Shown here piece by piece: positions 54,928-61,233 of a stretch of DNA of 64,000 nt. Origin of the DNA: Bacteroidota bacterium (GTDB taxonomy: Bacteria > Bacteroidota > Bacteroidia > B-17B0 > Aurantibacillaceae). How positions within the stretch are numbered: position 1 is the stretch's first letter; the number at the start of each line of letters is the position of its first letter. The position numbers and the translations under genes are program-made. The notes beneath the pieces were generated by a model. It did not search any database, had not been told where the DNA came from, and saw only the letters and a program-made list of their open reading frames with translations. The stretch spans positions 1-64,000 of the forward strand of contig JANYGK010000110.1 of the NCBI GenBank assembly GCA_025362395.1, written 5' to 3'.

Positions 54928-57900
54928 CTATCTGTTTAAAATAATTCGTTTTGTGGTTTGCGAATTATCTGAAATTATTTTCACAAAATAAATACCATTG
55001 TTTATGCTATCCGTTTTTAAAGCTAAGTTTTTAGTAGTAGCAATTTCTCTTAATACTAATTGACCTAAAGCATCAGTTAATTCAACTTGATATGTTTCGT
55101 TGTTGAAACTTAAAAATTCAATATTAATAACTGAAGATGCAGGATTTGGATATACAATAAATGTACCTTCAAGAGGCTGTGTCAGCATTGAAATACCGGT
55201 ACATAAACTAACATCTTGCATAATGGTAGTTGAGTTAGTGCATCCGTTTGCATCTATTCCGCTTACCGTATAAGTAGTTTGAGTTGTTGGTGTAACTGCA
55301 ATAACAGGAGTTGTTTCTGTTGTACTCCAAGTATAGGTGGTTGCTCCGGTTACTGATAAAGTAGCAGTTTGTCCTATGCAAATTAGGGTGTTACTTGTGC
55401 CGGCTGTTACAACAGGCAATGCTTTTACGGTTACCGAACTTACTGCTGTATTGTTACAACCATTAGCATCTATGCCCGTAACGGTGTAGCTCGCATTTGC
55501 TGTTGGCATTACTACACCTGCTCCGCTTGAATAAGTGTATGTACTTGCACCGCTTGGTATCATTGTAAATGATTGCCCTGCGCAAATAACGCCTGAGTTT
55601 ACAGAAATTACAGGTAATGTATTTACAGTTACAGAACTTGTTGCTGTATTAGCACTCACACAACCAGCAGCACTTGTACCCTTAACGGTATACGTTGAAT
55701 TGGATAGAGGACTAACCGTTGTTGCACCACCTTGCACGGTGTATGTACTTGCTCCGGTTGGTATCATTATGAATGATTGCCCTGTACAAATAGCCCCGGA
55801 GTTTACACTAACGGTTGGATTCGCATTTACCGTTACAGTAGATGTGCTTGTTGCTCCTGCACTACAACCTGTTAAATTACCATTAACACTATAAGTTGTG
55901 TTAACAGTTGGTGTTACTATAATAGTAGGCGTATTAGCACCTGTGTTCCACGTATAAGTAGTAACACCGCTTGCTGTTAATGTAGCAGAGTTTCCCGCAC
56001 ACACGCTTACCGAATTTAAAGCGATGCTTGGTGCCGTGCCCACAGTAATTGTTGCAATTGTTGGTGTACCTACACAACCCGCACTACTTGTACCATTTAC
56101 AGTATAGCTAGTGTTTGATGCCGGGCTTGCGCTTAATACCGGTGTGTTTACACCCGTATTCCAAGTATAAGTTGCTGCCCCACTTGCCGTTAAGCTGCCT
56201 GTAGATCCTGCACAAATGGTTGTTGAAGCAACTGCTATAGTTGGTAAAGCATTTACGGTAACAGAACCGGTTGCAAAATTATCACAACCATTTACATCGG
56301 TACCATATACATTATAAGTTGTTGAACCGGTTGGTGTAACAATAGCTGAACCACTACTATAGGTGTATGTACTTGCACCGCTTGGCGACATAGTAAACGA
56401 TTGACCGTTACAAATTGCGCCGGAGTTAACTACTACATTTGGTAAAGCATTTACGGTAATTGTTTTTACAGATGTATTGGTACAGCCCGTTAATGCTGCC
56501 GTTCCTGTAACCGTATATGCTGTTGTAGTTGTTGGAAAAAATGCTGTTGCATTTGTAACACCACTTGTCCAGGTATAAGTACTAGCACCTGTACCGGTTA
56601 GGGTAGTTGAGTTCCCATTACAAATAACAGAATTAGTAACCGTTGCATTTACTGCCGGAGGAATTAAAGCAGTTGTATATCCATTAACAACGCTACCAGG
56701 TGCTATCCAATTTGAAGTTGTTCCTGCTAAAGCAAAATTTGTAAGGGTTGCTGTATTTGAATTACCGGATGCATCTGACACATTTATTTCTGTTGAATTA
56801 TTTGCTGCATCAAAACCTTGATTAAAATGATAGTTAGCAACTAAAAGAGCTGATATGACCGGAATTTCACAATCTTTATAGGTATTAATTTCACATTGCG
56901 TTCTGGCTACATTCCAAACTCTAACTTCATCAATAGTACCATTAAAATATTCTCCATAATTAGTAGAACCTATCCTCACGTTTGTTGCCGGTACAATATG
57001 TGCGGAGCCGGGTGTATCCGAACCTTTTAAAATACCATCAATAAAAATAAATCGGGTTGTTCCATCAAAGGTTGCTGCAATATGATGCCAATTTCCATCT
57101 ATCAAATTTATTGGTGATGAAGAAACTACAAGATCCGGTCCCCACCAATAGTTTACAATGTTCCCGCTTGCATCTAATCTTAACGCATTTACAGCTCCAC
57201 CGGTACCATAATTACCCCAGCCAACAATACCTAAATTACCCAATGTATTAGGTTTAATTTTAGCTTCAATAGTATAAGCAGAATTTCCAACAGGAATAGC
57301 TGATGGAGTTATAATATCCGCATAATCATCAACACCATCAAAATTAATAGCGGCTGCTACTGTGCACGTATTTACCGTAACACTTGAAACTACATTTATG
57401 GAAGACACACAACCATTAGCATCTGTTCCACTAACACTATATGTGGCATTTGATGTTGGCATTACTACATTCGTTCCGCTTGAATACGTATACGTTGATG
57501 CCCCGCTCGGAACCATGGTAAATGATTGTCCCGAACAAATTGCTCCTGAGTTTACTGAAATTATTGGCAATGCATTAACCGTTACACTGCTAACCGCCGT
57601 ATTAGCACTCACACAACCTAGCGTACTTGTACCCTTAACTGTATAAGTAGTATTAGATAAAGGACTAACTGTTGTAGCGCCGCCCTGCACAGTGTATATA
57701 CTAGCGCCTGTTGGAATAATAGTGAACGAATTACCACTACAAATTGTACCCGAGTTTACTGAAACTGTTGGCGTTGTATTTACTGTTACAGAACTTGTTG
57801 CTGTATTAGCACTCACACAACCTAACGTACTAGTACCTTTTACGGTATAGCTTGTTGTTGATAAGGGACTAACTGTTGTTGCACCACCTTGCACGGTGTA

Positions 57901-60177
57901 TGTACCGGCGCCGGTTGGAATAATAGTGAATGAATTACCACTACAAATTGTACCCGAGTTTACGGCAACTGTTGGTGTTGTATTTACTGTTACAGAACTT
58001 GTTGCTGTATTAGCACTCACGCAACCCGCAGCACTTGTACCTTTAACGGTATATGTTGAATTGGATAAAGGACTAACCGTTGTTGCACCGCCTTGCACAG
58101 TGTATGTACTAGCACCACTTGGAATAATAGTGAACGAATTACCACTACAAATTGTACCCGAGTTTACGGCAACTGTTGGTAAAGCATTTACTGTAATTGT
58201 TTTTACAGCAGTATTGGTGCAACCAAAAGCAGCTGTACCTGTTACTGTGTATGCTACAGTTGTAGTAGGAAAAAATGTTATGGCGTTTGTAACACCACCT
58301 GTCCATGTATACGTAGTAGCACCTGTGCCGGTTAGCGTAGTTGAGCCGCCATTACAAATCACTGAATTTGTAACCGTTGCGTTTACTGCCGGTGCTGCTA
58401 AAGGAGTTGTAAATCCGCTTACAACAGCGCCCGGTGCAAGCCAATTAGAAGCATTACCTGTTAAAGCAAAATTAGTAAGCGCACCGTTATTAGCATTACC
58501 GGAAACATCGGTTAATGATGTGATACTTGTGTTGACAGAAGAAGCAACACCTTGATTAAAATGGTAATTAGCTAATAAGTTTGTTGCGGTAGTTGGTATT
58601 TCACAATTCATAAATGTATTGATTTCGCAGGTTGTGCGAGCTACATCCCATATACGAACTTCATCCATAGAACCTTGAAAAAAATTTGAACTACTTGGTC
58701 CGTATTGGCCTATAGCGATGGCATCATTCGTATATCCCGAATTTGAGATTCCTGAGTTTACAAGTACCCCGTTTTTATATAAACCGGATACCGAAGTAGC
58801 AGAGTTAAAGGTAACGGCTACATGCACCCATTGATTGAGAGGGAAAACCAAAGGATCTTGGATTACCGATCCTCCATTATTAAATGTACTTAATTGCCCG
58901 CCTGAAAGCCAAAAGGCAGCTGAACCTGAACTAATAATATTACCGGAACTTGATGCATTGGCATATATCCACGCCTCTTTGGTGTATGATGAGTTTGGAG
59001 AAATAACAGTTCCAATAGATACATAATCATCTACCCCATCTAAATTAAGTGCTGCACCAACGGCACAGGTTGTAATAACTTGCACAGGCGTTGATTTAGC
59101 AACCAGTGTGCCATCACCCAATTGTCCGCCACCATTACTACCCCAAGCCCAAATAGTACCATCGGTTTTTATGGCAACACCATTAAACGATCCCGCAGAA
59201 GGATAAATCCAATTTGTAGATACACCAATTTGTGTTGGCACATTTCTATTTACCGTTGTACCATCTCCTAATTGGCTCAAATTATTATATCCAAATCCCC
59301 AGAGTGTGCCGTCTGTTTTTGTAGCCAAACTATGTCTGTAAAAGGCAGCAACGGCTTTCCAATTTGTAGCCACACCAATTTGTGTTGGTGCAGCGTTTTG
59401 AGCTACTGCTCCCGAACCTAAAGCTCCTTCGATATTATATCCCCACGACCATAGAGTACCACCTGTTTTTACAGCAACAGAATGAGCCTGACCACAAGCT
59501 ACAACCGACCAGTTAGTAGCTGTACCAATTTGTATTGGAGTTGCTCTCATTAACGTTGTTCCATCTCCTAACTGTCTAATACTATTAGCACCAAAGCCCC
59601 ATAAAGTGCCGTTACTTTGTATAGCCATTGTAAAATCCGAACCTCCAGAGGCCGATTGCCAATTGGTGGCAACGCCTATTTGTGTAAACACGTTTTTATC
59701 GACAGCAGTACCATCGCCTAATTGTGAGTTACTATTTAAGCCGCAAGCCCAAAGGGTACCGTCTGTTTTAATAGCAATGCTGTGATTTTCGCCTGCATTT
59801 ACAAACAACCAGTTATTTGCTACACCTATTTGTGTAGGAACCGATTTATTAACCGTTGTTCCATCGCCTAATTGCCCATTAGTATTTTGACCCCAAGTCC
59901 AAAGTGTGCCATCTGTTTTAATAGCCAAAGAATGGCCACTTCCACAGGCAATACTTTTCCAATTTGTAGCCGTACTTGTTTGTACTGCGGTTGATCTATT
60001 AGTCGTAGTTCCATCGCCCAATTGCCCAATACTATTAAACCCCCAACCCCATAGGGTGCCATTTGTTTTAATTCCGAAAGAGTAACCACCACCCGTGGCT
60101 AGTGTTTGCCAGCATTGGGCAGTTGTTGTAATAGCCGTTGCTATTATAAAATAAGAGAGTAATAGTAGTTTTTTCAT
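54928..60177 (-). CDS. Giant secreted RCC1-propeller/LamG/Ig-repeat protein with T9SS type A sorting domain
   Basis: The 1749-residue protein has a signal peptide (cleavage near ITTTAQ). Residues about 20-370 are seven RCC1-type units (NGTLWGWGFNSIGQLGDGTT and relatives), enough for a closed seven-bladed propeller. Then come LamG-like domain 1 (about 373-590, NLDGVDDYVSIG), five Ig-like units (about 592-936), LamG-like domain 2 (about 940-1175, NFDGVDDYADI), seven Ig-like units (about 1176-1665) and a type A T9SS sorting domain (about 1670-1749: FIVYPNPASSVINIEF, ending KRIILNR). It is thus inferred to be exported and attached at the surface. LamG domains suggest glycan or matrix binding. It is divergent from a two-component system. 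Confidence 0.92.
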   Translation of the reverse strand: MKKLLLLSYFIIATAITTTAQCWQTLATGGGYSFGIKTNGTLWGWGFNSIGQLGDGTTTNRSTAVQTSTATNWKSIACGSGHSLAIKTDGTLWTWGQNTNGQLGDGTTVNKSVPTQIGVANNWLFVNAGENHSIAIKTDGTLWACGLNSNSQLGDGTAVDKNVFTQIGVATNWQSASGGSDFTMAIQSNGTLWGFGANSIRQLGDGTTLMRATPIQIGTATNWSVVACGQAHSVAVKTGGTLWSWGYNIEGALGSGAVAQNAAPTQIGVATNWKAVAAFYRHSLATKTDGTLWGFGYNNLSQLGDGTTVNRNVPTQIGVSTNWIYPSAGSFNGVAIKTDGTIWAWGSNGGGQLGDGTLVAKSTPVQVITTCAVGAALNLDGVDDYVSIGTVISPNSSYTKEAWIYANASSSGNIISSGSAAFWLSGGQLSTFNNGGSVIQDPLVFPLNQWVHVAVTFNSATSVSGLYKNGVLVNSGISNSGYTNDAIAIGQYGPSSSNFFQGSMDEVRIWDVARTTCEINTFMNCEIPTTATNLLANYHFNQGVASSVNTSITSLTDVSGNANNGALTNFALTGNASNWLAPGAVVSGFTTPLAAPAVNATVTNSVICNGGSTTLTGTGATTYTWTGGVTNAITFFPTTTVAYTVTGTAAFGCTNTAVKTITVNALPTVAVNSGTICSGNSFTIIPSGASTYTVQGGATTVSPLSNSTYTVKGTSAAGCVSANTATSSVTVNTTPTVAVNSGTICSGNSFTIIPTGAGTYTVQGGATTVSPLSTTSYTVKGTSTLGCVSANTATSSVTVNTTPTVSVNSGTICSGNSFTIIPTGASIYTVQGGATTVSPLSNTTYTVKGTSTLGCVSANTAVSSVTVNALPIISVNSGAICSGQSFTMVPSGASTYTYSSGTNVVMPTSNATYSVSGTDANGCVSSINVVSSVTVNTCTVAAAINFDGVDDYADIITPSAIPVGNSAYTIEAKIKPNTLGNLGIVGWGNYGTGGAVNALRLDASGNIVNYWWGPDLVVSSSPINLIDGNWHHIAATFDGTTRFIFIDGILKGSDTPGSAHIVPATNVRIGSTNYGEYFNGTIDEVRVWNVARTQCEINTYKDCEIPVISALLVANYHFNQGFDAANNSTEINVSDASGNSNTATLTNFALAGTTSNWIAPGSVVNGYTTALIPPAVNATVTNSVICNGNSTTLTGTGASTYTWTSGVTNATAFFPTTTTAYTVTGTAALTGCTNTSVKTITVNALPNVVVNSGAICNGQSFTMSPSGASTYTYSSGSAIVTPTGSTTYNVYGTDVNGCDNFATGSVTVNALPTIAVASTTICAGSTGSLTASGAATYTWNTGVNTPVLSASPASNTSYTVNGTSSAGCVGTPTIATITVGTAPSIALNSVSVCAGNSATLTASGVTTYTWNTGANTPTIIVTPTVNTTYSVNGNLTGCSAGATSTSTVTVNANPTVSVNSGAICTGQSFIMIPTGASTYTVQGGATTVSPLSNSTYTVKGTSAAGCVSANTATSSVTVNTLPVISVNSGVICAGQSFTMIPSGASTYTYSSGAGVVMPTANASYTVTGIDANGCNNTAVSSVTVKALPVVTAGTSNTLICIGQTATLSVTGATTYTWSTTETTPVIAVTPTTQTTYTVSGIDANGCTNSTTIMQDVSLCTGISMLTQPLEGTFIVYPNPASSVINIEFLSFNNETYQVELTDALGQLVLREIATTKNLALKTDSINNGIYFVKIISDNSQTTKRIILNR
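55200..58400 (-). repeat. Ig-like repeat arrays (5 + 7 units) in the RCC1/LamG gene
   Basis: Units of about 68-75 residues carry the marks VNSGTICSGNSF, STYTVQGGATTVSPLS and TYTVKGTSxxGC. Neighbouring units in 57580-58180 are almost identical in DNA with a 204-base period (the stretch starting at 57781 recurs at 57985). The second LamG-like domain (57370-56650) splits the series into 5 units (57370-58400) and 7 units (55200-56650). Both LamG-like domains are each followed by a unit starting NATVTNSVICNG, suggesting the LamG-plus-array module was duplicated as a block. Confidence 0.8.
59060..60120 (-). repeat. Seven RCC1-type propeller units
   Basis: Seven units of about 50 residues, each with TLWxWGxNxxGQLGDGTT, a PTQIGVATNW strand and a HSLAIKTDG strand, lie in tandem. 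Seven is the blade number of RCC1-fold propellers. Confidence 0.85.
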
Positions 60178-60361
60178 ACGTAAATATTAAAAGTTTAAAT
60201 AGTTTATTATGCCAAAAGTGAATCAATTAAACTCCTTAAAAAAAAATATGGTACGAACAACAGAAATATGTATGCGAACTACCATCCATTTTTAAATACA
60301 TAATTACTCTTTATAAAGTTAAACTTCACTTATTGTTAAGTATATTAGGTGTGTTATAAAT

Positions 60362-60488
60362 AGTGCTTGCAAGAAAACGTCATCTGCGTCGTTCCTTTTT
60401 TGTCTTGAAACCGGTGATTTAGATGAAGTAAACCCCTATTTTCAAGACTTTGAAAACGCCCTGCATCTTACATTTTTTTGCAAGCACT
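60362..60488. repeat. 127-bp imperfect palindrome between the RCC1 gene and the LytTR regulator
   Basis: The outer arms AGTGCTTGCAA (60362-60372) and TTGCAAGCACT (60478-60488) pair perfectly over 11 bases. The inner arms GTCTTGAAA (60402-60410) and TTTCAAGAC (60440-60448) pair over 9. The two pairs are exactly symmetric (offset 40 on each side). Across the 49 bases of each arm about 33 positions match without any gap. The right end is 7 bases before the regulator ATG at 60496. It could be an old hairpin-type insertion or a regulatory stem-loop. The rest of the gap (60178-60361) shows no gene. Confidence 0.7.
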
Positions 60489-60495
60489 CAAAATA

Positions 60496-61233
60496 ATGAG
60501 TTTTATTGCAAACGCTAAGTACTGTATGTTTAAAAATTGTATTGTTTTAATTGTAGAAGATGAGTTGCTTATAGCAGAGCATATTTTACGAACCCTTAAA
60601 CTGGCGGGTTATGCAAATGTAAATACAGCACACACCGTAGATGAAGCTTTAGTAAACATTGAGCTGCTAAAACCACATATTGTACTAACCGATATTATGT
60701 TAGGTACAACTAAAACAGGTGTTGATTTAGGCCAACTGTTATATAACATCTATAAAATACCATTTATATACATTACCTCGCACTCAAGCTCCGAAATGCT
60801 TACTAAAGCAAAGCATACGCACCCAAACGCTTATTTAGTAAAACCATTTAAAAAAGAAGATTTATTAATAGCCATTGAGTTGGCTTTATTTAGTGCTGAA
60901 ATACAAACTAAAACAACAAGCGAAAAAAGTTTAGTAATTAAAGATGGGCACGCCATGGCACAAATACCCATTGATGATATAACCTATTTAGAAGCCGAAG
61001 GGAATTACACCTTATTATACACAAGTAATGGTAAAAAAAAATTGGTTAGAACAGTAATTACTGAGCTTTACCAACAGTTAGCGACCGATGGATTTTTAAA
61101 AATTCACCGTTCGTATGTGGTAAATAAAAAAGCGGTAACAACCTATAAGGCTGCGCAAATTTATATTAATGATATTATACTTCCTGTTGGTCGCACTTTT
61201 AAAGAAAAAATAGATGAAGAGTTTAAAAACTAG
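60496..61233 (+). CDS. LytTR-family response regulator
   Basis: The protein of 245 residues has a receiver domain (VLIVEDELL acidic pair; phosphorylated Asp in IVLTDIMLG; the Lys of YLVKPF) and a C-terminal LytTR DNA-binding domain (about 145-245; IDDITYLEAEGNYTLLY, FLKIHRSYVVNKKAV). LytTR proteins bind pairs of direct repeats and often control surface or extracellular factors. A second in-frame ATG at 60526 (MFKNCIVLIVEDE) fits the family start as well; a TTG at 60478 lies inside the palindrome. It is followed by the TPR histidine kinase and diverges from the RCC1/LamG gene. Confidence 0.9.
   Translation: MSFIANAKYCMFKNCIVLIVEDELLIAEHILRTLKLAGYANVNTAHTVDEALVNIELLKPHIVLTDIMLGTTKTGVDLGQLLYNIYKIPFIYITSHSSSEMLTKAKHTHPNAYLVKPFKKEDLLIAIELALFSAEIQTKTTSEKSLVIKDGHAMAQIPIDDITYLEAEGNYTLLYTSNGKKKLVRTVITELYQQLATDGFLKIHRSYVVNKKAVTTYKAAQIYINDIILPVGRTFKEKIDEEFKN

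Follow-up and report, generated by a model that had tools for sequence, protein, structure and literature searches.

In the window analysed here, a 64,000-nucleotide stretch of a Bacteroidota genome (G000), positions 60362 to 60516 are very probably a non-autonomous DNA transposon (MITE), present as one decayed copy. The whole element is 155 bp long on the + strand, with the ends AGTG and CGCT, the latter a decayed CACT in the end-to-end alignment with L016, L034 and the family. In this alignment of family copies, the conserved unit runs beyond the palindrome first described (60362-60488), on to 60516. A covariance model of the family matches the same interval (60362-60516; E = 4.4e-16), the window copy being one of its training members. 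The outer stem is formed by a 5' arm (AGTGCTTGCAAGAAAA, 60362-60377) and a 3' arm (TTTTTTTGCAAGCACT, 60473-60488) that pair at 16 of 16 positions, G-U included, and the inner stem by GTCTTGAAA (60402-60410) and TTTCAAGAC (60440-60448), as given by the palindrome arms and the fold. Two core segments lie in conserved columns of 29 divergent members: the (near-)invariant TCGTT on the 5' side (60389-60393), carrying the U of an invariant U-G wobble, and CGCCCT on the 3' side (60458-60463), which reads CGCCTC in the family. The right extension (60489-60516), conserved in L016, L034 and L019, holds a second inverted match (I2) to the left end, with a second, decayed end, TTTTATTGCAAACGCT, whose family form is TTTTCTTGCAgACACT. 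All these parts are on the + strand. The unstranded flanks AAAT (60358-60361), placed by the family flank consensus and the duplication test given below, and AAGT (60517-60520), identical at 3 of 4 positions, are a probable 4-bp target duplication. By inner motif, the nearest relatives of this copy are L016, L034 and the G068 copies L195, L204 and L205.

The palindrome is imperfect, 127 nt long and centred on 60425. Its outer arms (60362-60372, AGTGCTTGCAA; 60478-60488, TTGCAAGCACT) share this centre with the inner ones, and 33 of the 49 positions of the ungapped arms match. The coordinates and the match count of the original prediction, with paired arms of 11 and 9 bp, were confirmed, and so was its statement that the symmetry lies far above chance. 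In a scan of all centres in the window, the score of 33 occurs once, at 60425, with a runner-up of 29, while shuffling the local 2 kb 200 times gave 31 at most. Folded as RNA, the palindrome reaches -39.4 kcal/mol (z = -5.9), equalled in none of 200 shuffles; folding as DNA gives a z of -3.8.

The element sits in a 348-bp spacer separating two divergent genes. The one at 54928-60177 (- strand) encodes a secreted protein of 1749 aa with RCC1 repeats, two LamG domains, a Por_Secre_tail sorting domain and long internal repeats. The other (60526-61233, + strand) encodes a response regulator with REC and LytTR domains (Pfam PF00072 and PF04397), and a TPR-HisKA_2 kinase lies downstream of it. The element had been thought to end 7 bases before the regulator start, a distance based on ATG 60496, which falls within the element itself. 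The N-termini of homologues point instead to ATG 60526, because their VEDE motif is close to the N-terminus, and the element ends 9 bp ahead of this likely start. No Bacteroidetes-type TAnnTTTG motif was found in 60178-60530.

A blastn search for a second full copy in the window genome found none, and movement within this genome cannot be shown because it has only one copy. In relatives, on the other hand, multiple dispersed copies were found. In G009, from the same genus, a 73%-identical copy comprising the palindrome and about 29 bases rightward lies in an unrelated ars-like locus, and a half copy is found beside mtaB, on its 3' side. Using the G009 copy as lead, we found a copy in G047, which belongs to another genus, and many in G012 and G010, with about 13 and 21 matches, respectively, to a family query and identities of up to 96%. 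A second subfamily, with the left end AGTGTCAGCAAGAAAACT, is present in G010 and G012; TCGTT, TCATTTRC..GYAAACTCC and, in the 3' arm, the CGCC(T) segment are inner features common to both subfamilies. The covariance model, built from 16 copies and searched against 87 genomes of the bacterial family, gave about 75 matches in 16 genomes and 4 of 10 genera, counts slightly inflated by some palindromes read on both strands. Eleven of the 16 matched genomes had supplied no sequence to the model. Matches per genome include 23 in G010, 12 in G012, 8 each in G047 and G068, 7 in G046 and one in G000. Distant members have wholly different yet complementary outer stems, such as TGTGAATCTC/GAGATTCACA and AAGGGGATTCTAAAAA/ATTTTTAGAACCCCTT. 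Outside these genomes, a near-perfect copy had no match in plasmids and phages, and the exact end pattern was absent from viral contigs, where none of 20 loose-pattern matches was accepted by the covariance model. In Rfam, no family scored above its gathering score, and the partial literature covered holds no account of such an element. We provisionally regard the AGTG...CACT elements as a new, undescribed MITE family.

The family element is about 145 to 155 bp long, has no coding capacity, folds for the greater part into a single long imperfect hairpin and ends in AGTG...CACT, its left and right ends being imperfectly complementary over about 16 bp, as terminal inverted repeats. From 44 copies, the flank consensus is TAAWT/AGTG on the left and CACT/AAWTA on the right, with the right boundary placed by the CACT match alone. 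Of the 44 copies, 12 have the same 4-mer on both flanks, where shuffled partners give 3.3 (p < 5e-5), the shuffling serving as control since AWWT flanks are partly alike through base composition. When only copies with an exact CACT right end are considered, 7 of 10 have identical 4-mers (1.5 expected), and a 262-bp member shows the exact duplication ACTT/ACTT. Because right ends vary, many copies show an imperfect duplication. These flanks indicate that the target of the family is T-AWWT-A, with 4 bp of it duplicated.

In 28 of 37 copies, the left end is 4 nt or less from the upstream stop codon, against about 7.6 under a rough uniform null, and right ends show no such enrichment (8 of 28; 8.1 expected). 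The main arrangements at gene ends are TAA-WT/AG and AAA-T/AG, where in the latter the first bases of the element finish a TAG stop. Both arrangements would follow from the target sequence, and therefore no special link to translation would be needed. At the 3' side of prfB, 19 genus members (L156-L174) have differing palindromic repeats right after the stop codon, such as GGAACGCAGATGACGCAGATTG...CAGCGTTCC and TTAACCACATAGATACATAG...CTATGTATCTATGTGGTTAA; in G010 and G012, it is the present element that lies there. Repeats of several families seem to accumulate at gene ends.

Element presence is patchy at smpB and prfB among 20 relatives, and old copies are shared at orthologous sites of G010 and G012 (L055/L060, L063/L058 and L069/L074). 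Left-end remnants after internal deletion were found at ilvN in G010 and at the L064 site in G012, where the counterpart of a G010 site keeps part of its left end and looks internally deleted. At smpB, G012 carries the element, and G010 lacks it but has a TAG stop where other genus members have TAA, possibly a scar of the element. No pristine empty site was found at smpB, prfB or the L064 site, where there were old losses or sequences too diverged to align. Copies at unrelated loci in relatives, the duplication seen across the family and the patchy presence bear out the original prediction of a decayed hairpin-type mobile element; the absence of other copies, which it named as counter-evidence, applies to the window genome and not to its relatives. 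Interior swapping between conserved ends, considered for L116 and L119-L121, was rejected, the orthologous pair L052/L120 being a deletion beside another repeat. In L116 (G010:C179:3011), the family left end is followed by a REP-flanked insert within about 50 bp, which suggests that one repeat family inserted into another. The hairpin apex of L065, L067, L069, L070, L072, L074, L127 and L128 contains, always at the same place, a nested palindromic insert (TACTTCGACTTCGCTCAGTACAAG or closely similar), and other copies of the element have TACCGCTGTAGCGGTA in the 3' arm.

The hairpin is conserved throughout the family. For the 14 members tested, folding gave z values from -4.9 to -13. When the structure of L178 was applied to 29 members in a plain MAFFT alignment, both sides had changed in 175 cells; shuffles gave 81.6 (sd 7.7), and 0 of 500 came up to the observed count. 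Covariation scored 0.285, whereas shuffles gave 0.130 and slid controls no more than 0.175. The shuffle control leaves the relatedness among members in place. RNAalifold predicted no structure on the most diverse alignment, probably because the outer arms are out of register. The core consists of a 3x3 internal loop, a G-C pair, the U-G wobble (present in 29 of 29 members), a bulged U and a TTTAC..GTAAA apex. Template-switch repair can yield complementary palindrome arms in the absence of selection. It would also be expected to erase the conserved unpaired core, and the persistence of this core therefore suggests selection. It is possible, if somewhat doubtful, that the folded core is common to mobile elements with wholly different, still complementary outer stems and ends, forming a class of structured transposons that target stop codons, with the core selected on the folded strand as a single-strand transposase signal or as a 3'-end RNA module.

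The position of the window copy raises the question of whether it evolved to control the regulator. A structured RNA within the LytTR 5' leader, acting like an attenuator or riboswitch, would agree with the strong hairpin, the strong covariation and the short distance to the likely start codon. We consider it quite improbable, since the element is absent from all 13 loci of LytTR homologues examined (one of them a paralogue in the window genome), family members are neighbours of unrelated genes, in most cases at the 3' end, and a target-site duplication is present. The regulatory RNA stem of the original prediction holds in that the hairpin is kept by covariation; this is, however, a property of the element and not of the LytTR gene. 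Even less credible is the two-sided operator also proposed there, with the LytTR protein as predicted binder: it would account for the two-fold symmetry and the position upstream of the gene, but it leaves the 155-bp constrained hairpin and the target duplication without explanation. The same 13 loci count against it, as does a family found mostly away from LytTR genes, with relatives adjoining smpB, prfB, ilvN, ars and mtaB. An inserted copy may have been put to secondary use as a LytTR leader RNA, and any influence of the element on this gene would be incidental.

Another possible interpretation concerns the mover, which would be a RAYT (Y1 HUH) transposase instead of a DDE transposase, making the element REPIN-type. 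The hairpin has conserved unpaired features and strand polarity, and RAYT/Y1 genes were found in 5 of the 6 genomes searched (G000, G010, G012, G014 and G047). GTAG REPs are likewise reported as palindromes 3' of genes whose ends often supply the TAG stop codon (PMC3733652). However, the element is absent from the nine Y1 loci examined, it has no GTAG tag and it duplicates 4 bp of target, while G009 contains copies with no Y1 gene found. In G010 and G012, the three RAYT loci (L080, L081 and L083) are flanked by other palindromes, each gene lying between its own repeated one. We rejected a RAYT/Y1 partner and find a REPIN origin unlikely. The loci and genomes searched yielded no autonomous transposon with AGTG...CACT ends. 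An IS630 partner, suggested by the idea of a TA duplication, was also rejected: PF13358 copies in G000 and G010 have apparently unrelated ends, ATAGTCCAATTTTGG-like by eye, and the end-motif pair of the element was not found at the IS630 loci of these two genomes. The IS630-type copies L134 (G000:C54) and L135 (G010:C103) both have the transposase frame split into two ORFs, and their ends contain TAGTCCAA.

We suggest that the MITE inserts at T-AWWT-A and copies the middle 4 bp, as seen at the family level and for 3 of 4 bp in the window copy. A transposase acting in trans would presumably move it, with either the ends or the folded strand as its recognition signal. The target resembles a TAA stop followed by WTA, as well as AAA-TAA, and the stop is left intact on insertion; surviving copies would therefore gather at gene ends. 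The window copy would have landed, or been retained, in the spacer between the divergent genes. The isolated palindrome now belongs to a defined MITE family that seems undescribed, occurs in several genera of one bacterial family and has its ends, target and duplication mapped; its target choice would explain copies at stop codons with no gene breakage. A hairpin that is strong, symmetric and 5' of a regulator is not necessarily an operator, and the covarying core in elements with different ends could be a testable strand-specific transposition signal or 3'-end RNA module.

MITEs of the IS630/Tc1 type (Correia, Nezha, RUP) are small non-coding elements with short terminal inverted repeats, AT-rich targets and TA duplication. 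The element described here is likewise small and non-coding, with short terminal inverted repeats and an AT-rich target, but its duplication is of 4 bp and not TA. With GTAG/CGTC-tagged REPs and RAYT-linked REPINs it shares a palindrome downstream of genes that supplies the TAG stop; it differs in lacking the GTAG tag, in its far longer stem and in the 4-bp duplication, and the local RAYTs carry other REPs. MITEs are also described in a Bacteroidetes host, Porphyromonas gingivalis (PMC4596501, PMC5771137), a likeness by description. The ERIC / RU-1 elements of Enterobacteriaceae are 127-bp stable stem-loops with TA ends and TA duplication (PMC2759123). They resemble our palindrome in being imperfect and of the same length, intergenic, non-coding, hairpin-forming, dispersed and read as non-autonomous mobile elements (PMC2759123); set apart by description, ours occurs in other bacteria, presumably with a different sequence, and has AGTG...CACT ends, a 4-bp AWWT duplication and a right extension. 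In form, ERIC elements are its closest analogue.
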